Part shown: positions 19,628-45,800 of the stretch, in pieces
How positions within the stretch are numbered: the first letter of the stretch is position 1
Layout of the letters: each line of letters begins with the position of its first letter
Assembly: GCA_008638215.1 (NCBI GenBank)
Contig: VTPN01000001.1
Span: 1-64,000, forward strand
Direction: 5' to 3'
DNA length: 64,000 nt
From: Pelagibacteraceae bacterium
Lineage (GTDB): Bacteria; Pseudomonadota; Alphaproteobacteria; HIMB59
Made by a program: the position numbers and the translations under genes
The notes under the pieces: model-generated
Seen by the model: only the letters and a program-made list of their open reading frames with translations
What the model was told of the DNA's origin: nothing
Database searches by the model: none

Positions 19628-19725
19628 CGTTTAACTACTGACAACAACAGAAATAGTGAATCGGGCTATGTCACTAAAAATTCATAATTTATTTGTGAAA
19701 ATTATATTAAGGTGGAACAAAGAAA

Positions 19726-20373
19726 ATGCAAAAGTACTTCTCTGAATTTCTGGGTACCTTTATTCTTTTATTGAGTATTGTGGGATCAGGAATCGCTGGT
19801 CAACAATATACTGACGATCAAATGGTAATTCTTTTCAGTCATTCTGTGGTCATCGGATTTACTTTGATCTTTTTAATTCGTATGTTTGCAAACTACTCTG
19901 GAGCTCATTTTAATCCAATTGTCTCTTTGTTGTTTTTTTTTAAGGGAGAGTTATCTTCCAAAGACTTAATAATCTATATGGTCATTCAGTGTGTAGCTGC
20001 CATCCTAGGTACAATGTTTGCTAACTTTCTCTTTGGATTTAATGTGATTGAAATCTCTTCCAATATTAGAAGTGGAAATAATATTTATATCTCAGAAATC
20101 TTTGCTACTTTTGGATTACTCATGGTCATCTTGCTATCAAGGGCAGATGGAAAAAATATTGTGGCTTTCAATGTTGGAATATATATATGCGCGTCTATTA
20201 TCTTTACCTCTTCTGCCAGCTTTGCTAATCCTGTTGTAACAATTGCTCGAATGTTTACTGAGACTTTTGCAGGAATTCATCCTTCGACAATCTTTTTTTT
20301 CATTGGATCTCAAATTATAGGCCTAGGAATTGCTTACACTGTCTACAAACAAGTATTTGAGAAAAAATCTTAA
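19726..20373 (+). CDS. MIP-family channel, AqpS-like aquaglyceroporin
   Basis: Major intrinsic protein of 215 residues with six membrane helices and both half-helix loops. The two NPA boxes are altered to NPI (GAHFNPIVS) and NPV (FANPVVTIARMFTETFAGI); the selectivity arginine after the second box is kept. It faces an arsenate reductase gene, 26 bases away and convergent. In Sinorhizobium meliloti an aquaglyceroporin of this kind (AqpS) exports arsenite formed by ArsC, so arsenite efflux is the favoured role. A glycerol or small-solute facilitator is the alternative. SD AAGGTGG lies before the ATG. Confidence 0.8.
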   Translation: MQKYFSEFLGTFILLLSIVGSGIAGQQYTDDQMVILFSHSVVIGFTLIFLIRMFANYSGAHFNPIVSLLFFFKGELSSKDLIIYMVIQCVAAILGTMFANFLFGFNVIEISSNIRSGNNIYISEIFATFGLLMVILLSRADGKNIVAFNVGIYICASIIFTSSASFANPVVTIARMFTETFAGIHPSTIFFFIGSQIIGLGIAYTVYKQVFEKKS

Positions 20374-20399
20374 CTTCTTTAAAACTTAAAAAGCTATTT

Positions 20400-20879
20400 T
20401 TAAAACAAACTTCCAATTAGTTTTAGTTCTTCTATTTGAAATTTTTTGGTTTTGCTATATTTTTCAACCATTGCGTGGGTTCGTTTCGCAAGAATTGTAA
20501 AAATTCGCTGAAATTCATTTTCAATTTCTTCTTCACTGCCCTTAAACTTAGCTGGATCTTCAACGCCCCAATGCACTTTAGGTGCGCTGCTTAAATAAAC
20601 AGGGCAAGATTCACCAGCAGCATTATCACAAACTGTGATCACTAAATCAAAATTTATATCACTGAATTCGTCCCAAGATTGGCTTTTGTAATCTGTTTCA
20701 AAAATACCTGATTTTTTTAAAGTTTTTAAACTCATTGGATGAACATAGCCTGTGGGTTTACTACCGGCACTAAAGGCTTGAAAATCATCTTTACCAAAAT
20801 GATTGATTAGCCCTTCTGCCATAATTGAACGACAAGAGTTACCCGTACAAAGGACTAAGATTTTTTTCTTATTATTCAT
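20400..20879 (-). CDS. arsC: Arsenate reductase, low-molecular-weight phosphatase type
   Basis: Thioredoxin- or glutaredoxin-coupled arsenate reductase of the low-molecular-weight tyrosine phosphatase fold, about 159 residues. The P-loop CTGNSCRS (C-x5-R) lies near the N-terminus and the general-acid aspartate in VEDPAKF. A resolving cysteine is plausible in VCDNAAGESCPVY. It overlaps the 3' end of phoB by 8 bases (ATG at 20879, with a TTG at 20882 as alternative), so it is read as the last gene of the pst-pho unit. This couples arsenate detoxification to phosphate starvation, when high-affinity uptake also brings in arsenate. Confidence 0.85.
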   Translation of the reverse strand: MNNKKKILVLCTGNSCRSIMAEGLINHFGKDDFQAFSAGSKPTGYVHPMSLKTLKKSGIFETDYKSQSWDEFSDINFDLVITVCDNAAGESCPVYLSSAPKVHWGVEDPAKFKGSEEEIENEFQRIFTILAKRTHAMVEKYSKTKKFQIEELKLIGSLF

Positions 20880-21564
20880 CAAAATCTAGGGAATAGCCAG
20901 CCGACCTAACTGTGCGAATTATATCTTTCTCTTCATTTTTATTTAGTTCTTTTCGAAGTCTACGAATGTGGACATCAACAGTTCTTAACTCTACATTGAC
21001 TTGATTGGGCCAAATCTTATTTAATATCTGCTCTCGAGAGAATACTCTTTGTTTATTCTTTAGTAGGAAAAATAAAATATTAAATTCTGTTGGGCCAAGG
21101 TTAAGTCGCCTTTCTCCTCTGTAGGCTTTTTTTTGAACGGTGTTTATTTTAATTTCATTAAAAATAAGATTTTCTTGATCTTGATTTGACTGACTGGTTC
21201 TTTTTAAAATTGCTTTAACCCTTGCGATAAGTTCACTAGGTAAAAAAGGCTTGGTAATATAATCATCTAATCCGCTTTCAAAACTTATGATCTTATCTTG
21301 TTCGGAGTTTTTTGCTGTAAGCATTAATATGGGCAGGTTTTTATACTCTTGCTTATTTCGAATTCTTCTAAGAACCTCTAAGCCCGAAAGACCCGGTATC
21401 ATCCAATCCAAAATAACAAAATCAGGCATAAATGTATCAAGATGTGATAAGGCGTCTTCTCCATTATGGACAACTAAATATTCGAAATTATTTTTTTTTA
21501 AATGCAAAGAGATAAGGTCTGAAATAGACTGATCATCTTCGACTACTAATATTTTAGGAAACAA
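20872..21564 (-). CDS. phoB: Phosphate regulon response regulator PhoB
   Basis: OmpR/PhoB-family response regulator, 230 residues. The receiver domain has the acidic pair Asp10/Asp11, the phosphoacceptor Asp53 (VILDWMIPGLSG) and the conserved KPF; the C-terminal winged helix (RRLNLGPTEFNILFFLL to VDVHIRRLRKEL) binds DNA. It begins with TTG. Its place after phoU and the phoR gene upstream of pstS identify it as PhoB. It is the likely reader of the shared promoter element described at 18182, 26878, 35251 and 39256. Confidence 0.95.
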   Translation of the reverse strand: MFPKILVVEDDQSISDLISLHLKKNNFEYLVVHNGEDALSHLDTFMPDFVILDWMIPGLSGLEVLRRIRNKQEYKNLPILMLTAKNSEQDKIISFESGLDDYITKPFLPSELIARVKAILKRTSQSNQDQENLIFNEIKINTVQKKAYRGERRLNLGPTEFNILFFLLKNKQRVFSREQILNKIWPNQVNVELRTVDVHIRRLRKELNKNEEKDIIRTVRSAGYSLDFDE

Positions 21565-21569
21565 TTTTT

Positions 21570-22226
21570 TTAAGAATTATTGTACTTGCCTTCAATTAAG
21601 AAATGTACTTCTTCCATAATGTTGGTTACGTAATCTCCAATACGCTCAATACCTTTTGAAATTTGGATTAAAGCTAAGGAGTCGGGAATAAAATCATCGT
21701 GTTCTTTCATATAAGAAAGGACGTCTTTGATAAAACTAGCATGCAATTCATCAATAACATGATCTCGTTCGGCTATTTTATCAGCATCTGCAATTTTTCT
21801 ATCAAATAAGCAGTTCAATGCATCATGTGTCATAAGAGAAGCCTTTCCCCCTAGTATCTCCAGTTTTTCAATAAGTTGGTCAGGGATATTAGTGCTTACT
21901 CTATATCCTTTTTTTGCAACAGTTGTTAGGTGATCCCCTATTCTTTCAAGATCTCTAATGATCTTAATTGAGCAAAATAAAAATCTCAAATCGTCTGCCA
22001 TTGGCTGTCTCATTGCAATAATTTGAAAAACTAAATCACTAATTTCATGATTTAGCTGATTTATTAAGCTATCTTTTTCAATGACGGTATTTGCTAAATT
22101 TTGATCTCTTGAAGCAACAACTTTTAAGGCATCGCTAAATTGTTGTTCTAAAATTGATCCCATCTTAACTAGCTTTTCATTAATTGAATTAATCTGATTT
22201 TCGTAATTTTTATCTGTATGAGGCAT
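21570..22226 (-). CDS. phoU: Phosphate signalling protein PhoU
   Basis: Helical peripheral membrane regulator of 218 residues that links the Pst transporter to the PhoR kinase and limits phosphate uptake. Two three-helix PhoU repeats are visible, with the metal-binding helix motifs around IKIIRDLERIGDHLTTVAKK and ISKGIERIGDYVTNIMEE. It lies 2 bases after pstB and 5 bases before phoB. Confidence 0.95.
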   Translation of the reverse strand: MPHTDKNYENQINSINEKLVKMGSILEQQFSDALKVVASRDQNLANTVIEKDSLINQLNHEISDLVFQIIAMRQPMADDLRFLFCSIKIIRDLERIGDHLTTVAKKGYRVSTNIPDQLIEKLEILGGKASLMTHDALNCLFDRKIADADKIAERDHVIDELHASFIKDVLSYMKEHDDFIPDSLALIQISKGIERIGDYVTNIMEEVHFLIEGKYNNS

Positions 22227-22228
22227 TA

Positions 22229-22987
22229 TTATCCAAACCTTCCTGTAATATAGTCATTAGTTTTTTGGTTATCTGGTTTCGTAAAAATTTTAGTAGTATC
22301 TCCCTCTTCAATTAGATTGCCTAGGTGAAAAAAAGCTGTTTTATCAGATACTCTAGCTGCTTGTTGCATAGAATGAGTTACTATAATAATAGTATAGCTT
22401 TCCTTGAGTTCGGTTATTAATTCTTCGATAATTGAGGTGGCAATAGGGTCAAGAGCAGAACAAGGCTCATCCATTAAAATTACTTCTGGTTTCACCGCAA
22501 TTGCACGGGCAATACATAGTCTTTGCTGCTGACCGCCGGACAAGCTTGTTCCTAAATCATCTAATCGATCTTTAACTTCTTCAAATAAACCTGCTTTTTT
22601 TAAAGCAGTAACTACAATTTCATCCATTTCATTTTTTTTATCAGTAAAACCGTGAATTCTAGGGCCATAAGCAACATTATCGAATATTGATTTTGGGAAT
22701 GGGTTGGGTTTTTGAAAAACCATTCCAATTTTTTCTCTTAAATGTTCTACTTCTATTTCATTACTATAAATGTCAGTATCGTTCATGTAAATTTGACCTT
22801 CAACTTTACAAATCTCAATTACATCATTCATTCTGTTTAAACATCTTAAAAAAGTAGATTTACCACATCCTGAAGGCCCAATAAGAGCCGTTACTTTATT
22901 TTTCATAAAGTCTAAACTAATGTTATTGATAGCTTGTTTGTCACCATAATGAACGTTCACGTTTTTAGTAGAAATAATATTTACCAT
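22229..22987 (-). CDS. pstB: Phosphate ABC transporter ATP-binding protein PstB
   Basis: ATPase of the high-affinity phosphate importer. The 252 residues have Walker [10 protein letters not shown] (37-45), the Q-loop region [19 protein letters not shown], the signature LSGGQQQR and Walker [14 protein letters not shown], ending with the PstB-typical [17 protein letters not shown]. It overlaps pstA by 7 bases and is followed by phoU. Confidence 0.97.
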
Positions 22988-24231
22988 TTAACTTCAACCT
23001 TTCTTCTTATTAGTATAGCGGCGAGATTCATCACAATTAAAAAAAGAAGTAGCAACATGATACCAGCAGAAGTCTTTTCAATAAAGCCTCGTTCAGCACT
23101 CTCAGACCAAAGATAAATTTGAGATGGTAAACCAGTTGCTGGATCTAAGGGACCTCCTGGAATTTCCATTACAAATGCCACCATACCAACCATTAATAGG
23201 GGGGCCGTTTCGCCTAAAGCTTGGGCCATTCCGATAATTGTTCCTGTCAGAGTTCCTGGAAGAGCTAAAGGGACTACGTGATGAAAAGTTGTTTGCACTT
23301 TTGTTGCGCCAAGAGCAAGGGCGCCGTGTCTTATTGAGGGTGGTACCGCGCGCAAAGAAGACCTACAAGCTATAATTATGGTAGGTAAGGTCATAAATCC
23401 CAGCGTCAAACCTCCAACCAGGGGTACTTGAAAAGGCATATTAAAAACTCCAATTAACATTCCAAGTCCTAATAATCCAAATACTATAGACGGAACTGCA
23501 GCAAGATTATTGATATTAACTTCTATTAAATCTGTCATCTTACCTGGCTTTGTAAACTCTTCTAAATAGACTGACGCAAATAAACCAATAGGAAATGAAA
23601 ATACTAAACAAATCATTAGCGCATAAAGGGATCCCATAATAGCGCCTAATATTCCTGCCGTTTCAGGATCACGAGAGTCTCCATTAGTGAAAAACCAAAA
23701 ATTAAATGTAGAACCAATTTTTTCCTTTGAAGTCAATTCATCTAAAATTGTTAACTGATAATCATTAATTTTTCTTTGAGACTCAGGGACATTTCTAGGG
23801 TAATTGCCCTTTACAATTTGATCAAGATCTGAGGACGCTGATATTTCTAAAGTTACTGTATTGTTGATTACTTCTTTATTTTTTAAGAAATAATCTCTTA
23901 GTTGATAATCAAATCGTCTTGTATACATTTCTCTAATTTTTATAAATTCATCTTCGCTAAGATTTTTAAAATTAAAATCAATTACTCCATCTGCTAATTT
24001 TTCAAAAGATGCTCTTGATATTTCTTTATCAGAGGAGTTTTGATCTACATTCATTAATTCAGGGTCAAAAAATATATCTGTCTCAATTGTTGTTCTAAAG
24101 AAAGCCCCACTCCCGGTGGAGAAAATTTTGATTATTAATAAAGAAACAAATAACAGTGATAAAAAAACTCCAACTTGCCCATAGAATTTAAAACGTCGCT
24201 CAGCGCTTAATCTTTTTTTAATATTACTCAT
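22981..24231 (-). CDS. pstA: Phosphate ABC transporter permease PstA
   Basis: Inner-membrane permease of the Pst system, 416 residues. It is longer than the roughly 300-residue E. coli form because of a large soluble insertion after the first membrane helix (about residues 45-175), a form common in alphaproteobacteria. The transport domain with the EAA-like loop ([21 protein letters not shown]) and the motif [15 protein letters not shown] follows. It overlaps pstC by 8 bases and pstB by 7. Confidence 0.95.
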
Positions 24232-25660
24232 ATTTTTCTCTATATTTTCTGACGATAACTACTGCGATTACATTTAAAATTAATGTCATAACAAATAAGG
24301 TCAAACCCAAAGCAAATGCAACTAAAGTTTTTGGATTGGTAAATTCCACATCTCCAATTAAGGCAGTAACTATTTGTGTCGTAATTGTTGTTGCTGGCTC
24401 TAATGGGTTAAATGTTAAATTTGCTCTCAAGCTAGCCGCCATTACAACAATCATGGTCTCACCTATAGCTCTTGAAATTGCTAATAGAAAAGAACCCATA
24501 ACGCCTGGCAACGCAGCCGGTAAGATAACCTTTTTAATTGTTTCAGATTTGGTTGCGCCAAGAGCATAAGACCCCTCTCTAAGAGGATTGGGAACTGATC
24601 TAATTACATCATCGCTCAATGAAGACACAAAAGGAATAATCATGACCCCCATAGCTAAACCAGCGGCCAAAGCGCTCTCAGCAGAAATATTGATGCCAAC
24701 TGAGTCACCAAACTGTTTTAACATTGGCGCTAAAGTTAAAGCTGCAAAAAATCCATAAACTACAGTTGGAATACCAGCCAAAATTTCAATTATTGGCTTT
24801 GCAATATCTCTGACTTTTGGCGAAGCATATTCAGCCAAATAAATTGCAGAGGCTAAACCAAGAGGCAATGCAACGAACATTGCGACAGAGCCAACTAACA
24901 AGGTTCCCGTAAGTAGAGGAATCCATCCAAAGGCATCTTTGAGAACTTCTTTATCAACTGTTTCAGCACTACTAATTACCCATGCACGATTAGGATTCCA
25001 CGATGTGTTAAAAAAGAAATCCATAAAATTTACAAATTGAAAGAATTTAATAGCTTCAAAAATAAGAGAAAAGAAAATTCCAAAGGTTATTAAAATTGCA
25101 ATAATTGAACTTAATCTAATGATGTTGATAATTATTTTTTCTACTAAGGGTTGAACATTTAACTTTTGATTAATTAGCCTAGATACCAATAATCCTATGA
25201 TGATTGGTAATAAAATAAAGACTACAACGACAGACCAACCATATATGCTATCAAAAGAAGCAAGATTTTTTGCAGCAATTTTTTCACTTTCAGACGACAT
25301 ATTTAAAAGTGATAGCTGGCCTTTCATAAGATCTACTTCAGGAATATTAACTATAAGCGATAAATTTGTGATTTTATTAAGTATTAATCCTAGTTTAGAG
25401 TCAGACCAATTTGCTAAATCAGGAAATAACGTAGGCGTCATCACATACATTTCTTCAAAAGTAGGTTTATATATTAATAAAAAAAACCAAATTAACAGTG
25501 AGGGCAATAAAACAATTAAAACTAAAAAGTAACCATAGTAGTCAGGAAGAGATGCTAGTCTTGCGTTATTAGAAAACTTTATTTTTAAAGCCCTATTTTT
25601 TCCAAAATAAAAAAACCCATACGACACAGCAAACAATAATAAAAGGGCTAAATATTGCAT
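24224..25660 (-). CDS. pstC: Phosphate ABC transporter permease PstC
   Basis: Second permease of the Pst system, 478 residues, with an N-terminal extension of about 150 residues (two membrane helices and a periplasmic segment) before the conserved transport domain, as in other alphaproteobacteria. The EAA-like loop is ALGATKSETIKKVILPAALPG; the motif AIGETMIVVMAA follows. An intrinsic terminator lies between pstS and this gene, so it is probably made at lower level than PstS. Confidence 0.95.
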   Translation of the reverse strand: MQYLALLLLFAVSYGFFYFGKNRALKIKFSNNARLASLPDYYGYFLVLIVLLPSLLIWFFLLIYKPTFEEMYVMTPTLFPDLANWSDSKLGLILNKITNLSLIVNIPEVDLMKGQLSLLNMSSESEKIAAKNLASFDSIYGWSVVVVFILLPIIIGLLVSRLINQKLNVQPLVEKIIINIIRLSSIIAILITFGIFFSLIFEAIKFFQFVNFMDFFFNTSWNPNRAWVISSAETVDKEVLKDAFGWIPLLTGTLLVGSVAMFVALPLGLASAIYLAEYASPKVRDIAKPIIEILAGIPTVVYGFFAALTLAPMLKQFGDSVGINISAESALAAGLAMGVMIIPFVSSLSDDVIRSVPNPLREGSYALGATKSETIKKVILPAALPGVMGSFLLAISRAIGETMIVVMAASLRANLTFNPLEPATTITTQIVTALIGDVEFTNPKTLVAFALGLTLFVMTLILNVIAVVIVRKYREKYE

Positions 25661-25687
25661 TGGTAGATTTTTACCTTACAGATTTAT

Positions 25688-25714
25688 AAAAAAAGGGGTA
25701 GGAAATCTACCCCC
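25688..25714 (-). terminator. Intrinsic terminator between pstS and pstC
   Basis: On the minus strand GGGGTAG (reading CTACCCC on the other arm) forms a 7-bp stem with a 5-base loop followed by seven T residues. It lies about 23 bases after the pstS stop and 28 bases before pstC. Partial termination here would favour binding protein over permease. Confidence 0.85.
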
Positions 25715-25736
25715 TTGATAAATTAATTGTTAGTGG

Positions 25737-26807
25737 TTATGGGCAAAGCTTTCCTGAGAAAGCGTAACCAGCATTTTTAAGTGGGTGTTCTTTATTTGCA
25801 CACGATTCAATGCTGAAACCCATTGGATCTAAAGTATCAGTGATGTTTCTAACTCTTGAGATTAGCTCAGGAACCATCGGGGCAGCGCCAATTTTTGTTA
25901 GGTAACCATTATCACCAATCGCCTCTTCACTTGCCATCATTTGTGCAAATTCCTGAATACCAGGCACAACACCAATGTGGTCCGCTTTTAAGTAGATGAA
26001 TAATGGTCTTGCCATTGGGTACTCATAAGAAGCAATTGTTTCACCTGTTGGTAAAACTCCTTCAACGCTCGCAGCTTTTAGCTTGTCACCGTTATCTTTA
26101 AGATAAGAGTAACCAAAGTAACCAAAACGCTGGTTATCTTCGTTCAGTTTTTGTGCGATTAGAGTGTCGTTCTCACCCATTTCAATGACTCTTCCGTCTT
26201 CTCTGTAAAGAACGCAGTCATCTTCCCTATCTTCAGGAAGTTCACAACCTTTTTCCATTACACCACCGTCAAAAGCATCTCTTGTTCCTGATGATGGAGG
26301 GGCAACTAGTACTTCAATTTTGTAATCAGGAAGATCGCTTCTGATTTCGTTCCATGATGAGTATGGGTTTTCTACTATTTTACCGTCAACCACAACATAT
26401 GCTGCCATAGCTTTCCAAATATCTTTTCTTGTTAGAGCGAAATCTTCAGCTGTGTTTGAGTGCGAAAATGTAATTCCGTCGTTAGCCCACATTACTTCGA
26501 TCACGTTTGTTACACCGTTCTCTAGGCAAAGTGCTGCTTCACTAGCTTTCATGTTTCTAGATGCACCAGTGATATCTGGGTGCTCAACACCAACACCAGC
26601 ACAGAATAACTTCATTCCACCACCAGTACCAGTTGGATTGTAGGTAGGCGTTTTGAATCCGGACTCACCCAATCTTTGAGCATTTACAGTTCCATATGGG
26701 TAAACAGTAGATGAACCTACTATATTTATTTGATCCCTTGCAAAAGACTCAGCAGCAAAAAGTGTTGAAACAACAAGCGCTAATAAAGTCACAAATGGTT
26801 TTTTCAT
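25737..26807 (-). CDS. pstS: Phosphate-binding periplasmic protein PstS
   Basis: High-affinity phosphate-binding protein of the Pst importer. It has a cleavable signal peptide (residues 1-23, ending AESFA) and 356 residues in total. The phosphate-binding motifs GSSTVYPY (31-38) and GTGGGMKLFCAG are present, as is PPSSGTRDAFDGG. The gene has its own promoter region with an extended candidate Pho box overlapping the end of phoR, and a good SD (AAAGGAAAAC). A terminator follows it, as expected for an abundant binding protein. Confidence 0.96.
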   Translation of the reverse strand: MKKPFVTLLALVVSTLFAAESFARDQINIVGSSTVYPYGTVNAQRLGESGFKTPTYNPTGTGGGMKLFCAGVGVEHPDITGASRNMKASEAALCLENGVTNVIEVMWANDGITFSHSNTAEDFALTRKDIWKAMAAYVVVDGKIVENPYSSWNEIRSDLPDYKIEVLVAPPSSGTRDAFDGGVMEKGCELPEDREDDCVLYREDGRVIEMGENDTLIAQKLNEDNQRFGYFGYSYLKDNGDKLKAASVEGVLPTGETIASYEYPMARPLFIYLKADHIGVVPGIQEFAQMMASEEAIGDNGYLTKIGAAPMVPELISRVRNITDTLDPMGFSIESCANKEHPLKNAGYAFSGKLCP

Positions 26808-26843: not shown

Positions 26844-26898
26844 AATACTTTAGTTAAGTAAATGAAATATTAAAGAAATGTTAAAGTTTTATGACAAG
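26844..26898 (-). promoter_or_regulatory. Tandem Pho box of pstS
   Basis: On the minus strand the sequence reads as five consecutive 11-base units: TTGTCATAAAA, CTTTAACATTT, CTTTAATATTT, CATTTACTTAA and CTAAAGTATTT. This matches PhoB half-sites (7 bases plus a 4-base AT spacer). The first unit overlaps the phoR stop codon. No -35 element is needed in such activated promoters. Confidence 0.72.
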
Positions 26899-28082
26899 AG
26901 AAGATCTATCTTAAAGGTGGACCCTTCCCCTAAACTGCTTGAAAATTCTAGTTTATGTCCATTTTTGGAGAGCAATTTATCAACTATCGCAAGACCCAGG
27001 CCATGTCCTCCTGTCTCACTATTTCTACTTTGATCAGCTCTAAAAAACTTAGTGGTAATTTTATGTAAATCATTTTGAGAAATACCAATGCCTTCATCTT
27101 TAATCATAATTGATATCTTATTATTTAGTTTCTTTGTTGTAACATATACGTTTTTTCCCGTAGGGGTGTACTTCAAAGCGTTAGACAGAAGATTATTTAA
27201 AATAAAATCAAAATCATTTGCAGTGAAATCAAAAAATATTTCTCTTGAAGCTTCAATGTCGATATGAAGTTGAATGCCTTTCTTCTTGAACAAAATTGAG
27301 TAGTTCTCTAATGATTTTTCTAATAGTAAATGTAAATCATTACTTATTTTCTGAATGGATAGAGATTCAATTTCGGCTAACTTAAGTGTTTGGTCAATTA
27401 AATCTCTTATTTGAAAAGTTTTTGCGTTAATAATATCTAAGTAATTTTGATTTTCTTGAATTGAAAGATTATTTAAATCAACTGTTTCTAGATAACCAAT
27501 TATTACTGACAAAGGTGTTTTTAACTCATGTGTTAAGCTAGTTAAGTTATCGCCTTGCTGCTCCTCTTTAATTTTGTCAAAAGTAATATCAGTAACTATT
27601 ACAATATAAAATTTAGAGATTTCAAATATTTCTGTTTTAAAATATTTTCTGGTTGGAAGAGGCTTACTCCAATTAAAAACAGAATAGCTATTATTTTTTT
27701 TGAATTTTTCAAATTGAACAATAAAGTCATAATCTCTGATTATTGACAGAATATCTTTATCTTTTTGTTCTCCATAAATTGACTTACAAGATAAATTTTG
27801 AGTATAAATCGTGAAATCTTTTCTTAAAACAAAGACAGCAGAAGAATATTGATCAAAAAAATCTAACGTAATTTCTTTTTCAATACTTCCATTATTTGGA
27901 ATGTCTTTTGATTTTTGTTTATCTCTTAATTTATTTTCAAAGTATTTTTTTACAAATAAAATTGCTATTACTTCATATATTAATAATAGTAAAACTAGTT
28001 CAAATTGAATGAAAAATAATAAGACTATATTTGCAATTAAAAAAAAAATGGCATTTATATAATTTTTATTAAGTAATTTCAT
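26889..28082 (-). CDS. phoR: Phosphate regulon sensor histidine kinase PhoR
   Basis: Membrane sensor kinase, 397 residues. Two N-terminal membrane helices (about residues 9-45), a PAS-like domain (about 75-165), HisKA with the phosphoacceptor His185 in LTHELKTPLS, and HATPase_c with NNLLSNALKYTP, DEGIGIS and HGLGLAIV. It is most likely PhoR because pstS follows directly and PhoB is in the same unit. It starts 25 bases after the PHP phosphoesterase gene on the same strand, so it can also be read from the binding-protein promoter at 35.2 kb. Confidence 0.93.
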   Translation of the reverse strand: MKLLNKNYINAIFFLIANIVLLFFIQFELVLLLLIYEVIAILFVKKYFENKLRDKQKSKDIPNNGSIEKEITLDFFDQYSSAVFVLRKDFTIYTQNLSCKSIYGEQKDKDILSIIRDYDFIVQFEKFKKNNSYSVFNWSKPLPTRKYFKTEIFEISKFYIVIVTDITFDKIKEEQQGDNLTSLTHELKTPLSVIIGYLETVDLNNLSIQENQNYLDIINAKTFQIRDLIDQTLKLAEIESLSIQKISNDLHLLLEKSLENYSILFKKKGIQLHIDIEASREIFFDFTANDFDFILNNLLSNALKYTPTGKNVYVTTKKLNNKISIMIKDEGIGISQNDLHKITTKFFRADQSRNSETGGHGLGLAIVDKLLSKNGHKLEFSSSLGEGSTFKIDLLLS

Positions 28083-28107: not shown

Positions 28108-29022
28108 TTAAATCCAAATTGGATTAGTCCAGGCACATCTGCCAATACAGTCAATGATTGTAATTCGAAACCAGTCAGAATTAAAATTTGTTAAATCTAA
28201 TTCAACAGATGTCAAATTTTGTCCATTATGATATTTTGAGCTACTTCCAGAACCAGCTACACAAACATGACTAGCGGGAGAACAAACCAACTGAACCTTT
28301 TTTTCATTTATAGAAAATTTTAAAATTTCAACACCAGTGGATGAATAGTATTGTCCTTTTTTAAGTGCGTCTAAGAGAGCCTGTTCTGATAATTCTTTTG
28401 CCGCCACCATAACCCATCCGCCACCTGCATCATTTATTCGAAAATGCGAGTCATCAGTGGCCGTTAATACAATTTTATGTTTTTCTTGCAATAAGTAATC
28501 AGCAGCAGCTATTCCACCACCTCTCCCCGCTTCTATATGACAAGAATTATTAAAAATTTCTACACCGTGTGCGTGACTAACAGACATAATTTCGTCAAAA
28601 GTTAGACTATACCAGTCAGGATGCGCGATGGTCACAAATGCGCCAGCTTGAAGAGCTCGATTAACTAGTTCTGGGGCCGTTTCTTGATCGCTAGCCGGTA
28701 GGAAGTCCAAGGGCAATCCATTAGCAACAATATGCCAAAGTCCGTCACGAACATATTTTTTTCCTAAACAATGGATTTCAGCAGAGGGAATAGTAATAAA
28801 ATTTTCAGTATTTAGTGAACTCGAGTCTAAAACATCAGGGGCACAATAATCTTTATTCGTCCATAGGTGATCGGACAAACAGATAAAATCATAACCAAGT
28901 TGTTGGTAGTGCTTTACAACATCCTCTGGTGAAAGCGCCCCATCAGAGTGGGTGGTATGACCATGCAAGTTACCACGAAAATATTGGTGTTTTGATCGTG
29001 ATGGAAGTAGTTCAATGTTCAT
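28108..29022 (-). CDS. PHP-domain phosphoesterase
   Basis: A 304-residue PHP-superfamily metallohydrolase. The metal ligands are visible in NLHGHTTHSDG, CLSDHLW, SAEIHC, IAHPDWYS and TATDDSHF; a small beta-rich C-terminal part follows. There is no signal peptide, so it acts in the cytoplasm. PHP enzymes hydrolyse phosphomono- or phosphodiesters (for example nucleotide 3',5'-bisphosphates or cyclic phosphates). It sits directly downstream of an oligopeptide-type importer and directly upstream of phoR, under a candidate Pho box, so release of phosphate from an imported organophosphate is a reasonable inference. The substrate is unknown. Confidence 0.82.
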   Translation of the reverse strand: MNIELLPSRSKHQYFRGNLHGHTTHSDGALSPEDVVKHYQQLGYDFICLSDHLWTNKDYCAPDVLDSSSLNTENFITIPSAEIHCLGKKYVRDGLWHIVANGLPLDFLPASDQETAPELVNRALQAGAFVTIAHPDWYSLTFDEIMSVSHAHGVEIFNNSCHIEAGRGGGIAAADYLLQEKHKIVLTATDDSHFRINDAGGGWVMVAAKELSEQALLDALKKGQYYSSTGVEILKFSINEKKVQLVCSPASHVCVAGSGSSSKYHNGQNLTSVELDLTNFNSDWFRITIIDCIGRCAWTNPIWI

Positions 29023-29048
29023 AATTAAATATTATAAAATAAATATAT

Positions 29049-30029
29049 TTAGTCATCTAAATTTATACAGGCAACTTCATGATTATGAAATTTTTTGAGG
29101 GATGGTTCATTTTGACGACATTGATCAGTAACTTTAGAACAACGACTTTGAAAAACACAGCCTTGTGGACGATCATAAATACTGGGGATTTCTCCCTCTA
29201 AAGTTTTTTGAATATTTTTTTTATGAGGGTTAATTGACGGCACGGCATTGAGTAGAGCTTGCGTATAAGGATGTTTAGGGGTTAGAAAGATTTCGTTTTT
29301 AGGAGCATACTCTACAATTTTTCCTAGGTACATCACTGCCACTTCATCACAAAAATTTGATATCACACTTAAATCATGACTAATGAACATAATTGTTAAT
29401 CCCATTTCATTTTGTATAGATTTTAATAACTGTAATATTCCTGCTTGAATTGAAACATCTAAAGCAGCTACGCTCTCATCCGCAACAATAAATTCCGGTT
29501 GGGCAATTAAAGATCGAGCAATGGAAATTCGTTGTCGCTGTCCTCCAGAGAAAGAGTGGGGGAAACGATTGAGATGATTAATGTTTAATTGACATTTTTG
29601 AGCAATCTCAATTACTCTATTATCGGTTTCACTTTTAGACTTAGTCATACCTAATGCCTCTAAGGGTTCTGCGATAATATCTCTGACTGTCATTCGAGGG
29701 CTCAAAGAGTTGTATGGGTCTTGAAAAATTAATTGGACTTTAGAGCGAAAATCTCGCAGATTTTTTTTTGAAAGATTGCTTAGATCTATGCTGCCTTCTT
29801 CAAAATTATAGTGAATAGATCCATGATGAAATTCTTTTGCTCCCAGCAAAGCCCTACCAAGGGTTGATTTGCCAGAGCCTGACTCTCCTACTAATCCAAC
29901 AATCTTTCCTTTGTTTATTGAAAGATTAACATTATCCACCGCCTTAAAAAATTCTTCTTTTTCAAAAAGACTTCTTCTTCCTCGAGAGTATTGAACGTCA
30001 AGATTGTTAACTTTGATAAAACTACTCAT
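29049..30029 (-). CDS. Oligopeptide-type ABC transporter ATPase (OppF/DppF-like)
   Basis: ATP-binding subunit of a peptide/nickel-type importer, 326 residues. Walker A GESGSGKST (48-56), signature FSGGQRQRISIARSL, Walker B EFIVADESVAALDVS, and the C-terminal oligopeptide-transporter domain with the FeS-like cysteines (GCVFQSRCSKVTDQC). It overlaps the paired ATPase by 8 bases. The substrate of the importer is not given by the ATPase; see the binding protein and the PHP gene. Confidence 0.88.
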   Translation of the reverse strand: MSSFIKVNNLDVQYSRGRRSLFEKEEFFKAVDNVNLSINKGKIVGLVGESGSGKSTLGRALLGAKEFHHGSIHYNFEEGSIDLSNLSKKNLRDFRSKVQLIFQDPYNSLSPRMTVRDIIAEPLEALGMTKSKSETDNRVIEIAQKCQLNINHLNRFPHSFSGGQRQRISIARSLIAQPEFIVADESVAALDVSIQAGILQLLKSIQNEMGLTIMFISHDLSVISNFCDEVAVMYLGKIVEYAPKNEIFLTPKHPYTQALLNAVPSINPHKKNIQKTLEGEIPSIYDRPQGCVFQSRCSKVTDQCRQNEPSLKKFHNHEVACINLDD

Positions 30030-30990
30030 GGTGAAGGTGACAAGAGATAAAATGATTATCTTCTATTTCTTTTATAAGTGGTGACTCTTTATCACATTTG
30101 TTATTTATAAATTGAGAACATCTATTTTGAAAAACACAACCTTGAGGACGATCTTTTAACAAAGGAACTTCTCCCCCGATAGGCAAAAGTTTTTTTTGAA
30201 AATTTTCAATATTAGGTGACGACTCAATAAGTGCTTTTGTATAGGGGTGTTGAGGATTAGTTAATACCTGGTAAACCGTGCCGCTCTCTACAATTTTTCC
30301 CATATACATAATCAAAATACGATCAGCTGTCTGGGCAAGAAGAGCTAAGTCATGAGTTATAAAGATTACGCCCATGTTACGATCTTGAACTTCTTTTTTA
30401 ATGAGGTTTATAATTTGTGCTTGAATAGTAACATCTAAAGCTGTTGTAGGCTCATCTGCGATTAAAAGCTTTGGATTGGTAGATAAAGCCATTGCGATCA
30501 TGGCTCTTTGTCTCATGCCCCCCGAAAATTCATAAGAATACTGATCAATTAAGTTTTTCGCATTTGGAATTCCAACGCTAGTCAGCGCTTCAATAGAGCG
30601 TTGACGCGCAGCTTCATCGGATAGCTGCTCATGTATTTGTAGTTGCTCAATCATCTGATCACCAATACGTATAGCAGGAGCAAAACTTGCCATAGGTTCT
30701 TGAAATACCATTGAAAAAATTTTACCCCGATATGGGATCATTTTTTCATCATCTAGTTCAAGTAGGTTTTGATTTTCATATAACACCCTACTGTTTTGAT
30801 CGTATATGGCATTTTCATCATTAAGTTGCATTAAAGATTTAGCGGTGATGCTCTTTCCAGAGCCAGACTCACCAGCAATTCCCAAAATCTCACCTTGATC
30901 AACATTAAAGCTGACATCATCTAAAGCCAATAGTTGCCCCTCATCAGTATCAAAATGAATTTTTAACTTTTCTATTTTTACTAAAGTCAT
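30022..30990 (-). CDS. Oligopeptide-type ABC transporter ATPase (OppD/DppD-like)
   Basis: Second ATP-binding subunit, 322 residues. Walker A GESGSGKS (40-47), signature FSGGMRQRAMIAMAL, Walker B LLIADEPTTALDVT and the C-terminal cysteine motif GCVFQNRCSQFINNKC. The pairing of two different ATPases is standard for this importer family. Its ATG overlaps the end of the permease gene by one base. Confidence 0.88.
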   Translation of the reverse strand: MTLVKIEKLKIHFDTDEGQLLALDDVSFNVDQGEILGIAGESGSGKSITAKSLMQLNDENAIYDQNSRVLYENQNLLELDDEKMIPYRGKIFSMVFQEPMASFAPAIRIGDQMIEQLQIHEQLSDEAARQRSIEALTSVGIPNAKNLIDQYSYEFSGGMRQRAMIAMALSTNPKLLIADEPTTALDVTIQAQIINLIKKEVQDRNMGVIFITHDLALLAQTADRILIMYMGKIVESGTVYQVLTNPQHPYTKALIESSPNIENFQKKLLPIGGEVPLLKDRPQGCVFQNRCSQFINNKCDKESPLIKEIEDNHFISCHLHHE

Positions 30991-32084
30991 TACTTTTGAA
31001 CTCGATAAGGATCCGCAGCATCTCTAATACCATCGCCGACATAAACAAAAGCCATGACTAATGCGATAAAAAATAATGTAGGAATATAGTACCACTGGTA
31101 GTTAAGAAGAACGTCTGTTTTGGTTGCGTTCTCTAACATTACACCAATACTATTGACAGGGTCTTGTAGTCCAAGTCCTATAAAGCTTAAAGATGTTTCG
31201 GCTAAAATCATATATGGAAAGTTTATTAAGGTATCAACTATTATATAACTAGTAAAACTTGGCAATAAGTGCTTATAAATTATTTTAAATGTACTTGTTC
31301 CGCATAGTTGGGCCGCAAGGATATATTCTTGATTTCGCTCTGAAAGAAGATGGGTTCTAAGTCGACGAGCCAAGGTAGGAAAATCTACCAACCCTAAAAT
31401 AGTTGCGATATAAAAGAAACGCATTTCTGCACTCCAGGTATCTGGAATAAAGGCTGCCAGAGCCATAAATAGTGGAATTGGAGGGATTGTTCGGATTGCA
31501 TCTGTAATAGCTGATAAAATACTGTCTACCCATCCGCCAAAATATCCGGCCAAACCTCCCACCAAAAGAGACATAAAAAGTTTGATCACCAAGCCCAACA
31601 GACCGACGGCCAAGGAAATAAAAATTGCCTTTAATGTCCTTGAAAAAATATCTTTACCAGTTTCGTCGGTGCCAAAAATATGAATTTGCCCTTTATCAAC
31701 ACCAAATAAATGTCTATCAAAGGTTATTCCTAAGAAAGTATACTCCCATCCTTTGACAAAAAAATAAACGTAGCGTCTTTCTTCTTTGTTGACTGTTTCT
31801 ACCCAACGAAAATTGGTTTCAATTGATCTTGTTCTCTCCGTGGAGTACAAAAACGGTCGAATAGAAAAACCATTTTCATCCCAAAATCGGGGTATTTGGG
31901 GTGCCCCATTAATATAATCCTTGTCCGCGCCTGCGATTGTTGGTTTACAGGGAGATAAAAAGTCGGAAAAAATACCCAAGGAAATAAGAAAAAGGAGAAA
32001 AAAGGTAGCTATTTTAGCGGATTTATTTTTTTTAAAGCGCTGAAAGACTAATTGTTTTTGTGAGAGAATTTCTGTTCGGCTCAT
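30990..32084 (-). CDS. Oligopeptide-type ABC transporter permease (OppC/DppC-like)
   Basis: Inner-membrane permease of 364 residues. One N-terminal helix (about 25-45) is followed by an unusually long periplasmic segment of about 100 residues (to about 135), then five helices with the EAA loop (AAQLCGTSTFKIIYKHLLPS) and the C-terminal DGIRDAADPY. The long periplasmic part resembles Yej- or microcin-type permeases rather than plain dipeptide permeases. It overlaps the partner permease by 4 bases. Confidence 0.87.
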   Translation of the reverse strand: MSRTEILSQKQLVFQRFKKNKSAKIATFFLLFLISLGIFSDFLSPCKPTIAGADKDYINGAPQIPRFWDENGFSIRPFLYSTERTRSIETNFRWVETVNKEERRYVYFFVKGWEYTFLGITFDRHLFGVDKGQIHIFGTDETGKDIFSRTLKAIFISLAVGLLGLVIKLFMSLLVGGLAGYFGGWVDSILSAITDAIRTIPPIPLFMALAAFIPDTWSAEMRFFYIATILGLVDFPTLARRLRTHLLSERNQEYILAAQLCGTSTFKIIYKHLLPSFTSYIIVDTLINFPYMILAETSLSFIGLGLQDPVNSIGVMLENATKTDVLLNYQWYYIPTLFFIALVMAFVYVGDGIRDAADPYRVQK

Positions 32085-33091
32085 TTTTGATTTAACATTC
32101 CTTTGCGCGCCCTAGGGTCAATGATAGATAGGACAATATCAGTTATAAAGTTGATTATAATAATAGTTGCGGTCATTAAAAAAATAATTGCCCCGGCTAA
32201 TTGCTGGTCATTTGAGCGAACTAGTGCTTGAAGAAGCAAAGAACCAGCATCAGTAATAGCCAAGATGAGCGCAACAATCGGTAAATCATTAAAAATACGA
32301 TTTAAATCAAAGCCAATTGAATTAATTAGAGGACTTAATGCATGGCGAGTTGGATAATTTAATAATAATCTTTTTCCAGTAACTCCTCTTGCTTTAGCGG
32401 CTGTCACATAGAGTTTTTTATTCTCATCGATTACTAATGCTTTAACAGTTTGAAGCGCAAGGGCGGTAGCCGCCCAACCTAAAATAAAAATTGGAAGCCA
32501 AGCATGTGCTAAAAAGTTTAGAAATTTTTTCATGCTCCAAGGAGCATCTTGATACTCAGGAGAAAACAGACCGGTTAAAGTATCGCCAAAATAAATAGTA
32601 GAGAATAACATAACCGCTAAAGCTACTAAAAAATTTGGAAGCGCCAAACCCAGATAACTAAAAAACTTAAGAGAACTATCTAAAATTTTATTTTTCGTTG
32701 TAGCGGAGATAATTCCAAATGGAATGGCCAAACTATAAGCCAGGATTAAAGCAACTATACATATGCCAAGGGACATTCCAAATTTTGGAATTAAAAGAGT
32801 GCTAATATCTACTCGCATAATACAACTAGTTCCAAAATCACCTTGAAATGCATTTAAAACCCAACTGCTATATCTAATTAGGAAAGGGCGATCTAACCCT
32901 AACCTTCTTTCTTCAGCGGCAATATCTTGAAACGTAATATTTTGTCCGCTACTTTGTTTAAAAGACAAATATCTCTCTGCACAATTTCCTGGCACTAATT
33001 CCATCAATGAAAAAACAATAAAGCTTATTAGTAAAAGCGTAATGATGGATAAGCCAAATCTGACGGCTATGAACTGGTAGATATTTTTCAT
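32081..33091 (-). CDS. Oligopeptide-type ABC transporter permease (OppB/DppB-like)
   Basis: Partner permease of 336 residues with six membrane helices, the EAA loop TAAKARGVTGKRLLLNYPTRHALSP (quoted in part) and the C-terminal LSIIDPRARKG. It follows the binding-protein gene after a 66-base gap that contains a 26-base perfect palindrome, so it is probably expressed less than the binding protein. Confidence 0.87.
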   Translation of the reverse strand: MKNIYQFIAVRFGLSIITLLLISFIVFSLMELVPGNCAERYLSFKQSSGQNITFQDIAAEERRLGLDRPFLIRYSSWVLNAFQGDFGTSCIMRVDISTLLIPKFGMSLGICIVALILAYSLAIPFGIISATTKNKILDSSLKFFSYLGLALPNFLVALAVMLFSTIYFGDTLTGLFSPEYQDAPWSMKKFLNFLAHAWLPIFILGWAATALALQTVKALVIDENKKLYVTAAKARGVTGKRLLLNYPTRHALSPLINSIGFDLNRIFNDLPIVALILAITDAGSLLLQALVRSNDQQLAGAIIFLMTATIIIINFITDIVLSIIDPRARKGMLNQK

Positions 33092-33106
33092 TTATATAAA
33101 TAAGAA

Positions 33107-33132
33107 ATACGGACAGTTTAAACTGTCCGTAT
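33107..33132 (-). other. 26-base perfect palindrome after the binding-protein gene
   Basis: ATACGGACAG-TTTAAA-CTGTCCGTAT is a perfect inverted repeat between the 683-residue binding protein and its permease. As RNA it forms a 10-bp stem with a 6-base loop; an AT-rich stretch but no clean U-tract follows. It is a likely mRNA stabiliser or partial terminator. Confidence 0.75.
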
Positions 33133-33157
33133 GTAAATTAATTATAAGTTTCTTTGA

Positions 33158-35209
33158 CTACTCAGCTAAAAACCACTGTTGAGGTCTATATGGGTATGTT
33201 CTGTAGTACTCATATGATGCTGTTTTGAACTCTGGGAAGTTCTGCAGCTCGTTTCGATGATAGATCGGAGCTGGACCAGCAACGGTACCAATGAACAATA
33301 GATTCTCTGTCATAGTTTTTACTAATTTTGCCCCTAACTTATCTGACTCGGGAGATCCAACCACAAGGGTTTGGAACTCATTTATATCTGCAATCATATC
33401 AGAAATATATTGAGGCGGCTTGACACCAGAGGCTCCATTAGTATCTAAATACTCTGCCCATAACATTCCATTACGGTGGCCAAAGTAGTTTTCAAATGGC
33501 GGAACAAATAGCTCATTTGTAGAGAGAATTGTAGGCAAAGGTTGTCCTTTTTTCCACAAGTGAACCTCTAGTTCGTTTGCCGATTGTGCTGTTCGATACT
33601 CATCCGTTGTTACTTGCTTGAAAGTCGTCTTAATACCAACGTCTGTCCAGTTTTGAGCAACTATCTCTGCTTCAATTAAAGGTAAGCCTTGATCAGAAAA
33701 GTTCATATTCAAAGTAAATGGCTTTCCATTATACTCTCTCATACCGTCACCATCGCTATCCACTAATCCAACTGCATCAAGCAACTTGCCTGCTTCATCG
33801 GGATCATAGGCAATTTTATGATTTAGGTATTTAGAGTCCACAAAGCTTGGAGCAGGAGAAAACGGAATATACTGCTGTGGGTTTCCTAACCCAAAGTATG
33901 CCGCATCATTAATAGCTCCCCTATCAATAGCTAGTGACATTGCCTCACGGAAGCGAACATCATTAAAGACAGTGTTTTTATCTTTGTCAGTAATATTATA
34001 GTTAAAACTGAAAACCGGAATAGAAACACCTGGTTTAATATCAACTGAATAATTACCTTTTTCTGCACCATCTAAAAGCTGAGGAGCAAATTCTAAGGCA
34101 AGATTCTGCGCAAGATATTCTACTTCTGAATTGGTTAACTTCAGCATTCTAACTTCATTGTTATTTTGAATGAAAGTTTCATTTTGTTCACTGATGTATG
34201 GTAATTGATTACCTTTTGTGTCAACCATGTGAAAGTATGGATTAGCAGCAAATTTTCTACCTTCTGATGTTTCCGCTACTGTTACATAGGCTTCTAGACT
34301 AGGATAAGCATCTTTTGGAAGGTTATCGACTTTGTCTGCAGCTGATAACATTGGAGAGGGCGTATCAGTCCAACATGAGTTTCCATAATAGGCTGATAAA
34401 ACAGCATACCCATTTTCAAAGCCTGCCTCTTGAGCTAACTGATCGGCATTAGGGTTCACATCTGGATGATACTGACCTAAGAAGTGCTTAGGAGCAAACC
34501 CTAGACAATAAGATGTAGCAAAGTGTGATAACAAACCTGGCTTGGCAGCAGGAAGAATGAACTTCACAGTAGTATCATTGACCACTTCTACTTCCATTCT
34601 TTCTCCAGCAACTTGTAGGTAGTCATAGGGCTTTTCACGAACGTTGCTATCAAACATTAAATTGTCATACCAAAACTTAACATCCTCAGCTGTAAAAGGA
34701 GCGCCATCACTCCATTTATGACCGGCCCTTAAAAAAAAGGTTAATTCTGTAAAATCAGAATTCCACTCCCAAGCTTTGGCTACGTTTGGAACGATTGTCT
34801 GAAGGTCATCAGAGAAACGGACAAAATTTACATGGCGCACTGATAACATATCAGAGGTTCCTGATTCAGTAGCATTAGCTAGCATTCTTAGTGTGCCGCC
34901 ATATTGGCCAATAGTGTCATACGGAACAACTACTAATGGCTCTGAAGGCAATCTGTCTGCAACACTTGCTAACTTACCGTTACCACGAATACGATCGTTT
35001 TGAGCATTAATATCGGGATTTTCACTAAATGAAAGTTCACATTTAGCTAGGTTCTCAAATTCCTCTAATTCATACTGCTGAGGATATGCTCCTTCAGAGA
35101 TGCCCATCATGTCAGAGACAGTAATGGCTTTACATCCGGAGTGAGAGCCTGCCTCGGCACCAAGCGAGAATAGAGAAATAGGTAATAATAATGTTAATAA
35201 TTTTAACAT
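33158..35209 (-). CDS. ABC transporter substrate-binding protein, SBP_bac_5 family (large)
   Basis: Periplasmic binding protein of 683 residues with a signal peptide (about 1-20, LLTLLLPISLFSLGAEA) and the family-5 extracellular binding domain (IGQYGGTLRMLANATE, FFLRAGHKWSDGAPFTAEDVKFWYD in part, REAMSLAIDRGAINDAA). It is about 150 residues longer than typical OppA/DppA. The N-terminus carries two extra cysteines. The SD is a perfect AGGAGG, and upstream lie a -10 TATAAT and a candidate Pho box. It heads an operon with two permeases, two ATPases and a PHP phosphoesterase. The substrate is unknown; the regulatory site and the PHP gene suggest a phosphorus-containing compound. Confidence 0.85.
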   Translation of the reverse strand: MLKLLTLLLPISLFSLGAEAGSHSGCKAITVSDMMGISEGAYPQQYELEEFENLAKCELSFSENPDINAQNDRIRGNGKLASVADRLPSEPLVVVPYDTIGQYGGTLRMLANATESGTSDMLSVRHVNFVRFSDDLQTIVPNVAKAWEWNSDFTELTFFLRAGHKWSDGAPFTAEDVKFWYDNLMFDSNVREKPYDYLQVAGERMEVEVVNDTTVKFILPAAKPGLLSHFATSYCLGFAPKHFLGQYHPDVNPNADQLAQEAGFENGYAVLSAYYGNSCWTDTPSPMLSAADKVDNLPKDAYPSLEAYVTVAETSEGRKFAANPYFHMVDTKGNQLPYISEQNETFIQNNNEVRMLKLTNSEVEYLAQNLALEFAPQLLDGAEKGNYSVDIKPGVSIPVFSFNYNITDKDKNTVFNDVRFREAMSLAIDRGAINDAAYFGLGNPQQYIPFSPAPSFVDSKYLNHKIAYDPDEAGKLLDAVGLVDSDGDGMREYNGKPFTLNMNFSDQGLPLIEAEIVAQNWTDVGIKTTFKQVTTDEYRTAQSANELEVHLWKKGQPLPTILSTNELFVPPFENYFGHRNGMLWAEYLDTNGASGVKPPQYISDMIADINEFQTLVVGSPESDKLGAKLVKTMTENLLFIGTVAGPAPIYHRNELQNFPEFKTASYEYYRTYPYRPQQWFLAE

Positions 35210-35394: not shown

Positions 35395-37062
35395 TTAAGC
35401 TGTTTTAAATCTCCAATTTTGAAAACGTGACAAGATATTTTTTGTGAAGACCACATAAGCAATCCTTACTGCGGCATTTGTAAAAAAGATCAGCATTCCC
35501 ATTGCTGCAGCTGGAGCGATATCTCCCGCATCATCCATATTAAGCACAGCTACTGAAGCCAATGTGGTTTTAGGTCCATAGATAAAGACGACTGCCGATA
35601 CGGTAGTCATTGCATTGACAAAGAAATAAATACCAATTTCAAATATTGCAGGAAGACTTATTGGAACAGTAACTGAAAAAAACATTTTATAAAAGGGTTG
35701 CTTTAAAGAAGAGGCTACACTCTCAAATTCATTATCGATTTGTTTTAATGCCGTGAGCGCCGTTAGGTGAGAAACTGTATAAAAGTGAGTAATAGTAGAA
35801 ATTACTAAAATAGCCATTGTTCCATAAATAAAATTAAATGGATTATTGGGGTTATTAAAAAAGAAAATATAAGCTAATCCTAAAACCATTCCTGGTATGG
35901 CCATGGGCATCATTGATAGTAGGTGCATCATAATTCTGGCTGGCTTAAATGATCGAGCTTTTTCAACGAAGTAGGCAGTTGTAAAAACAATTAGAGTGCC
36001 AAAAAGAGCAGCAAAGGAAGCCATTTTGATTGAATTATAATAAGAGTCCCAACCTCCCCCATCCATTAAATCAAATTGATAATTTTTTAATGATAAGGAG
36101 AGATTGTAGGGCCAAAATTTAATTAAACTTGCATACAAGCACATACCGACAACCGTCAAAATACATATTGAAATGATTATGCAGTAAACAAGCATGATAG
36201 TATCTAGAACTTTGTTTTTTTTAGGTTGATACACAACTGAGCGAGCGGTCAAAATTGAAACTTGTTTTTTTTGAACAATTCTATCCACAACAAAAGCAAG
36301 CATGGCAGGTATTAAAAGGACAACACTAACTACTGCTCCCATTTCAAAATTTTGTTGCCCGATAACTTGTTTATAAACATCAATTGCTAAAACGTTATAT
36401 TGTCCACCCACAACTTTTGGGATGCCAAAGTCAGTTATTACGAGAGTAAAAACTACAAAACAGGCGCTCATTAATCCGTATTTTGCTGAAGGAATAGTAA
36501 CTGTAAAAAAAGTTTTTATTGGACCAGCGCGCAATACGGTTGCTGCTTCATATAATCTTGCATCAGCGATTGATAAAGCAGTAATAATTATTAATAACGC
36601 ATGAGGAAATGTATAAAAAACCTCAGCTATGACAATCCCAATAGGTCCATAAATACTCTTCCCCATCAAAAGTTCTTTAAATATCCCTTGATTACCAAAT
36701 AAATAAATTAAAGCTATGCCCGCTAATAAAGAGGGTAAAAGTATGGGGATCATTGCAATAGAGCGAAAAAAAGGTTTGGCAACCATGCAACTTCGGGTTA
36801 AGGCAAATGCGAACATGAAAGATAGGCTTACTGAAATGATTGTTGAAATAATAGAAACGTAAAGACTATTATAAATAGAGTAAAAAAGTGAAGGATTAGA
36901 AAAGTAGTATTTATAATTTTCTAATCCAATAAACAAACCATCTTTATTTTCAATACTTTTAGATAAGATTGCATACATTGGCAAAGCCAAAGACACCAAG
37001 ATATAAGTAGCCGCAATTCCGATAAAGAAAACGGTTAAATAATCGTCTTTGCTTTTTTTCAT
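35395..37062 (-). CDS. Phosphonate-type (2-aminoethylphosphonate) ABC transporter permease, fused
   Basis: Inner-membrane permease of about 555 residues that fuses two six-helix transport domains in tandem, each with its EAA-like loop (ATVLRAGPIKTFFTVTIPSAK and VASSLKQPFYKMFFSVTVPIS in part). This architecture is shared by iron(III) and putative 2-aminoethylphosphonate permeases. The cluster (binding protein, single ATPase, fused permease) next to phnY and phnA favours 2-aminoethylphosphonate or a related aminophosphonate. The ATG at 37062 is preferred; a TTG at 37068 is possible. Confidence 0.8.
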   Translation of the reverse strand: MKKSKDDYLTVFFIGIAATYILVSLALPMYAILSKSIENKDGLFIGLENYKYYFSNPSLFYSIYNSLYVSIISTIISVSLSFMFAFALTRSCMVAKPFFRSIAMIPILLPSLLAGIALIYLFGNQGIFKELLMGKSIYGPIGIVIAEVFYTFPHALLIIITALSIADARLYEAATVLRAGPIKTFFTVTIPSAKYGLMSACFVVFTLVITDFGIPKVVGGQYNVLAIDVYKQVIGQQNFEMGAVVSVVLLIPAMLAFVVDRIVQKKQVSILTARSVVYQPKKNKVLDTIMLVYCIIISICILTVVGMCLYASLIKFWPYNLSLSLKNYQFDLMDGGGWDSYYNSIKMASFAALFGTLIVFTTAYFVEKARSFKPARIMMHLLSMMPMAIPGMVLGLAYIFFFNNPNNPFNFIYGTMAILVISTITHFYTVSHLTALTALKQIDNEFESVASSLKQPFYKMFFSVTVPISLPAIFEIGIYFFVNAMTTVSAVVFIYGPKTTLASVAVLNMDDAGDIAPAAAMGMLIFFTNAAVRIAYVVFTKNILSRFQNWRFKTA

Positions 37063-37071
37063 TCCCAATTA

Positions 37072-45790: not shown

Positions 45791-45800
45791 GAATTAGTAA

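Follow-up and report, generated by a model that had tools for sequence, protein, structure and literature searches.

In a marine bacterium of the HIMB59/AEGEAN-169 type, an arsenate-detoxification gene (arsC) appears to be built into the phosphate-starvation operon, and we put the probability of this explanation as a whole at roughly 0.78. The window, i.e. the entire 64,000-base stretch of DNA that was analysed, belongs to a 1.23-Mb alphaproteobacterial assembly (G000) with a completeness of 92.5%. Among its nearest relatives is G030, a single-contig genome of 1,410,127 bases, and close relatives of the locus are also encoded in single-cell genomes. On the minus strand of the window the genes follow in the order phoR-pstSCAB-phoU-phoB-arsC, with a channel gene (aqp) on the plus strand facing arsC. 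The features used below are:

19633-19701, minus strand: apparent remnant of the start of the gene found beside the katG-locus copies of aqp in other genomes
19726-20373, plus strand: aqp, MIP channel of AqpS type (215 aa; motifs NPI and NPV; Val171 where a filter arginine would be)
20400-20879, minus strand: arsC, predicted thioredoxin-type arsenate reductase of the LMW-phosphatase fold (159 aa from the ATG; Cys11, Cys84, Cys92)
20872-20879, minus strand: overlap of the arsC start with the phoB stop (8 bases, ATGAATAA)
20872-21564, minus strand: phoB, phosphate response regulator (230 aa)
21570-22226, minus strand: phoU
22229-22987, minus strand: pstB
22981-24231, minus strand: pstA
24224-25660, minus strand: pstC
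25692-25716, minus strand: attenuator-like hairpin and T-run in the pstS-pstC interval
25737-26807, minus strand: pstS
26858-26897, minus strand: Pho-box-like array 5' of pstS (TTGTCAT-AAAA-CTTTAAC-ATTT-CTTTAAT-ATTT-CATTTAC; 11-base period)
26889-28082, minus strand: phoR, sensor kinase
44738-45790, minus strand: Pit-type (PHO4) phosphate transporter
45801-46469, minus strand: DUF47/PhoU_div protein paired with Pit

Both elements of the layout on which the initial annotation had been built were confirmed. The 8 bases ATGAATAA are used by arsC as well as by phoB (if translation of arsC began at the TTG located 3 bases earlier, the overlap would become 11), and aqp runs convergently towards arsC, the two stop codons being separated by 26 bases. 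From pstC through arsC, neighbouring genes either overlap or are separated by at most 5 bases, so that one transcript is the natural reading of this arrangement.

Directly before phoR and on the same strand, the window encodes a 304-residue PHP-domain-like protein, along with an ABC transporter of the oligopeptide type (28108-35209). In G030, phoR is found instead after the counterpart of the window gene 35395-37068, and the 28108-35209 block is thus an insertion or a loss within the island. The pst operon (22229-26807) has a mosaic make-up, with 92% identity to G045 for PstB and 86-93% identity to G030 and G009 for PstS, PstC and PstA.

The LMW phosphatase superfamily includes tyrosine phosphatases as well as thioredoxin-type arsenate reductases, and the arsC product matches the Pfam model of this superfamily (LMWPc). 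The same match would be expected of a Wzb-like tyrosine phosphatase acting on surface polysaccharide or in phosphate metabolism; a tyrosine phosphatase (Wzb) is listed for the HIMB59 phosphate islands in the paper describing them (PMC10734472), and no LMWPc gene besides arsC was found in G000. The features of the protein itself point elsewhere. ArsC contains the CX5R loop with a nucleophilic cysteine (Cys11) and two more redox cysteines (Cys84 and Cys92) characteristic of the pI258/B. subtilis family, and these three residues, Arg17 and Asp108-Pro109 are invariant across the relatives from the HIMB59 order. E. coli Wzb, with 23% identity to ArsC, lacks the second redox cysteine. The top PDB sequence matches were the arsenate reductases of B. 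subtilis, S. aureus and Deinococcus, and for the AlphaFold model (mean pLDDT of 90) fold matches 1-19 were arsenate reductases, with Wzb at rank 21; ArsC is thus nearer to arsenate reductases than to LMW-PTP/Wzb in both sequence and fold. Its nearest plasmid relatives are annotated as ArsC, and the one that was inspected is located together with arsD, arsA and an arsenic transporter; identity to an ArsC encoded in an arsD-arsA-transporter operon amounts to 47%. Because of the cysteines, the sequence and the fold, we rejected Wzb or a polysaccharide phosphatase as the identity of ArsC, and we regard any phosphatase role of this kind as very improbable.

By sequence and modelled fold, then, the arsC product is a thioredoxin-type arsenate reductase with predicted activity, in agreement with the initial annotation. 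The gene evolves under purifying selection (dN/dS of about 0.11). Compared with B. subtilis ArsC, the second and third cysteines are one residue further apart, and the NCBIfam scores stay under the strict arsC cut-offs (93 bits for TIGR02691, against an equivalog cut-off of 174). Sister-family genomes encode a more divergent ArsC (about 30%), whose gene is several kb away from aqp; ppk-, sixA- and ppx-like genes occupy the interval (L067:6611-17031, L071:9697-16981). In these proteins, the third redox cysteine comes after the second at a distance of four residues.

Neither the ArsR repressor nor the ArsB or Acr3 pump of a classical ars operon was found. The initial report of no arsR could be extended from the window to the genome, which covers the possibility of an arsR elsewhere controlling this gene: HTH_5 had zero matches in G000 and matches in all 14 control genomes. 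ArsB and ArsP likewise had no match in G000, no Acr3 exceeded the cut-off among 60 genomes, and for ArsM, G000 had no more than a weak match under the threshold, similar to those obtained in each of the 14 controls. The evidence for the absence of an arsenic regulator and pump from G000 is strong, not absolute, as a completeness of 92.5% leaves room for a missed gene. The proposal that control had moved from arsenic to phosphate was not borne out, since no ArsR-controlled ancestor was found in the lineage.

Each of the 30 related loci that were read has arsC directly after phoB, an adjacency that is not a matter of chance. The junction is an 8- or 11-base overlap in the clade of the window and a spacing of 0 to 1 base in the other loci; in two further loci, those of G013 and G015, arsC converges on phoB instead. 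Gene packing in a streamlined genome could in principle produce such neighbours, with arsC being constitutive or transcribed from an internal promoter, and the compactness of the genome and the weak promoter-like matches scattered over the region, about as frequent as in shuffled sequence, fit that idea. Packing as the whole cause nevertheless seems quite unlikely to us, because the adjacency was retained where the regulator had been exchanged: in G009 and G026, the phoU-phoB pair is of another type (31-33% and 57% against the window), arsC and aqp remain similar to those of the window (76-83% and 87-88%), and arsC still abuts phoB. Furthermore, four pst islands of the same family without phoR and phoB (G012, G021, G034 and G043) are also without arsC, and the SAR11 homologue responds to phosphate (PMC6426599). 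Islands with phoB and without arsC do exist in the sister family (G055, G059), and the arsC-phoB tie is thus a property of the HIMB59 family and not of the whole order.

A candidate PhoB box precedes the unit. The Pho-box-like array upstream of pstS comprises three half-sites (p=0.002 versus shuffles) and is also present in G030, G045, G013 and G015 and, in a weaker form, in G009 and G050; it was absent from the three phoB-less islands tested. The initial claim that arsC is made together with the phosphate regulator is in line with its place as the last gene of a predicted pst-phoU-phoB unit behind this array, and phosphate control of arsC is likely as judged from sequence. Promoter and terminator scans of the region gave results near chance (about the shuffled rate), with the exception of the hairpin and T-run between pstS and pstC. 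This hairpin is strong, has comparable counterparts in four relatives and may lower transcription of the distal genes; it is possibly an attenuator that sets a high PstS:PstCAB ratio.

By sequence, the channel is of the AqpS type and not of the AqpZ type. It aligns to S. meliloti AqpS without gaps (36% over 212 aa, 154 bits) versus 44 bits for E. coli AqpZ, and it has the AqpS-type valine, Val171, at the filter-arginine position (R189 in AqpZ, V177 in AqpS), which is conserved in relatives. The position of AqpS T49 is occupied by Ile43 in the window channel and by Thr in the channels of the sister family and G013. The window channel carries NPI and NPV instead of two canonical NPA motifs; the second motif is NPA in relatives. 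The gene is under purifying selection (dN/dS of about 0.075).

Whether the channel belongs with ArsC is a separate matter. Supposing that arsC encodes a real arsenate reductase, its neighbour might still be an unrelated water, glycerol or peroxide channel whose position is incidental. In the genus of the window, aqp adjoins arsC in only 5 of 30 loci. In the other loci of the genus that were examined, aqp is located between an aminotransferase gene and katG, a peroxide-detoxifying gene; a single aqp beside katG is the rule in most of the genus, and it stays there in three genomes whose pst island is without arsC. The gene is also a transcription unit of its own, convergent and with its own promoter region, at which a Pho box was not significant (p=0.15), and the shared phosphate control initially assumed for the channel gained no support from the sequence.

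What leads us to consider an incidental channel unlikely is the combination of its AqpS type with its repeated association with arsC. In the sister family, aqp accompanied arsC in 38/38 cases (38 genomes with both genes, 30 with neither), although many of these genomes share one inherited island and the count does not represent 38 independent events. Three different layouts show the two genes together: the convergent one of the window, aqp before phoR in G013 and G015, and arsC-aqp-phoR in Pelagibacter-type genomes. Finally, a remnant of the katG-locus neighbour lies just upstream of aqp at 19633-19701 (22 bases at 95%; at the protein level, the match exceeded those of 300/300 shuffles), which suggests that aqp moved from the katG neighbourhood to arsC. 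A pairing of the channel with arsC is thus probable, and its role here is modelled on that of AqpS.

Three further observations concern the surroundings of aqp. The conserved stretch upstream of the gene had been considered as a Pho box and was rejected, being better explained as the neighbour-gene remnant from the katG locus. Across much of the genus, about 100 bases separate the AqpS-like gene from katG, which follows it on the same strand (L065:8397-12309, L070:5103-10291). In G009, whose channel gene adjoins arsC, katG is preceded instead by an ORF resembling a putative Fur/PerR-type regulator (L174:3710-4150).

Taken together, we propose a mechanism in which an arsenate-reducing enzyme is raised along with the system that lets arsenate in. 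At low phosphate, PhoR would phosphorylate PhoB, which would bind the box before pstS and increase transcription through pstSCAB-phoU-phoB into arsC. The Pst uptake system, which would also admit arsenate, and ArsC would thereby be raised on the same transcript. ArsC would reduce arsenate to arsenite, and thioredoxin or a comparable thiol would recharge its cysteine relay. Arsenite would then exit as As(OH)3 through the neighbouring AqpS-like channel, by analogy with AqpS; a passive channel performs no uphill pumping of arsenite. An arsenic-sensing repressor would not be used, low phosphate serving as a proxy for the risk of arsenate entry. Arsenic defence would probably be on when phosphate is scarce, which is when mistaken uptake of arsenate is most likely.

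Pst was initially suggested as the route by which arsenate enters. The same window encodes a Pit-type transporter with a DUF47 partner (44738-46469), a likely second entry route, so that Pst would not be the sole door and part of the arsenate load would fall outside PhoB control.

Extending this reading beyond the window, streamlined marine alphaproteobacteria might in general use phosphate scarcity as an arsenic alarm: arsC would be tied to PhoB in the HIMB59 family, and the arsC-aqp pair would have come together at the Pho operon on three or more occasions in differing layouts, with recruitment of a katG-locus channel among them, to give an anticipatory defence without an arsenic sensor. We hold this generalization tentatively and would not be surprised to see it fail.

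The window matches the gene content of the published HIMB59/AEGEAN-169 phosphate islands and is apparently the same island. These flexible islands (fGIp A-H) are described as containing pst, phoR-phoB, DGK, SET, LpxH, a glycosyltransferase, a 'tyrosine phosphatase (Wzb)' and 'GlpF', with a phoB-less version that is without the phosphatase (PMC10734472). Arsenic is not mentioned in the text, where the first of these two genes is taken for a polysaccharide phosphatase and the second for a glycerol facilitator (PMC10734472). Since no further LMWPc gene was found in G000, the 'Wzb' and 'GlpF' of that description (PMC10734472) apparently correspond to arsC and aqp, and our analysis suggests an arsenate reductase for the former and an AqpS-type channel for the latter. 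If the reannotation holds, low-phosphate variants of the island would also be arsenate-defence variants, and gene frequencies along ocean phosphate gradients would be read differently. The locus would also offer a testable example of a toxin defence under anticipatory control.

Clustering of arsenic and phosphate genes as such was known. The arsenic islands of Li et al. 2013, with pst, phn, ars and aio genes, resemble the locus in this clustering and differ in being built around arsenite oxidase and in having arsR and ArsB or Acr3 pumps (PMC3834237). Among 80 named-genome loci, arsC was found near pst genes in seven (two of HIMB59 type, the others including Alcanivorax and a Chloroflexi bin), so that the linkage is not unique. 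The arsR-aqpS-arsC-arsH operon of Sinorhizobium meliloti is similar in combining an arsenate reductase with an AqpS channel that replaces ArsB/Acr3; unlike the present locus, it starts with arsR, its ArsC is annotated as the glutaredoxin type and it is unlinked to pst/pho genes.

The closest parallel is SAR11, in which a phosphate-linked arsC-aqp pair induced by phosphate starvation had already been described (PMC6426599). Pelagibacter HTCC7211 has an LMWPc_ArsC of the same family with an adjacent AqpS-like aquaporin and no other arsenic genes reported; arsC is up 2.3-fold in phosphate starvation, and the gene frequency is inverse to phosphate (PMC6426599). Two Pelagibacter-type genomes carry arsC-aqp-phoR converging on phoB...pstS; they are so labelled from their size, their layout and the Pelagibacteraceae locus L100, which has the same arsC-aqp pair. 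In HTCC7211 both genes are on one strand (PMC6426599), whereas in the window arsC comes last behind phoB and aqp converges on it. The analysis adds the restriction of arsC to phoB-bearing islands within the HIMB59 family, the Pho-box contrast between phoB-bearing and phoB-less islands, and a proposed correction of two annotations in the literature. The HIMB59/AEGEAN-169 order would join SAR11 in phosphate-linked arsenate defence, in a tighter form in which arsC overlaps phoB.
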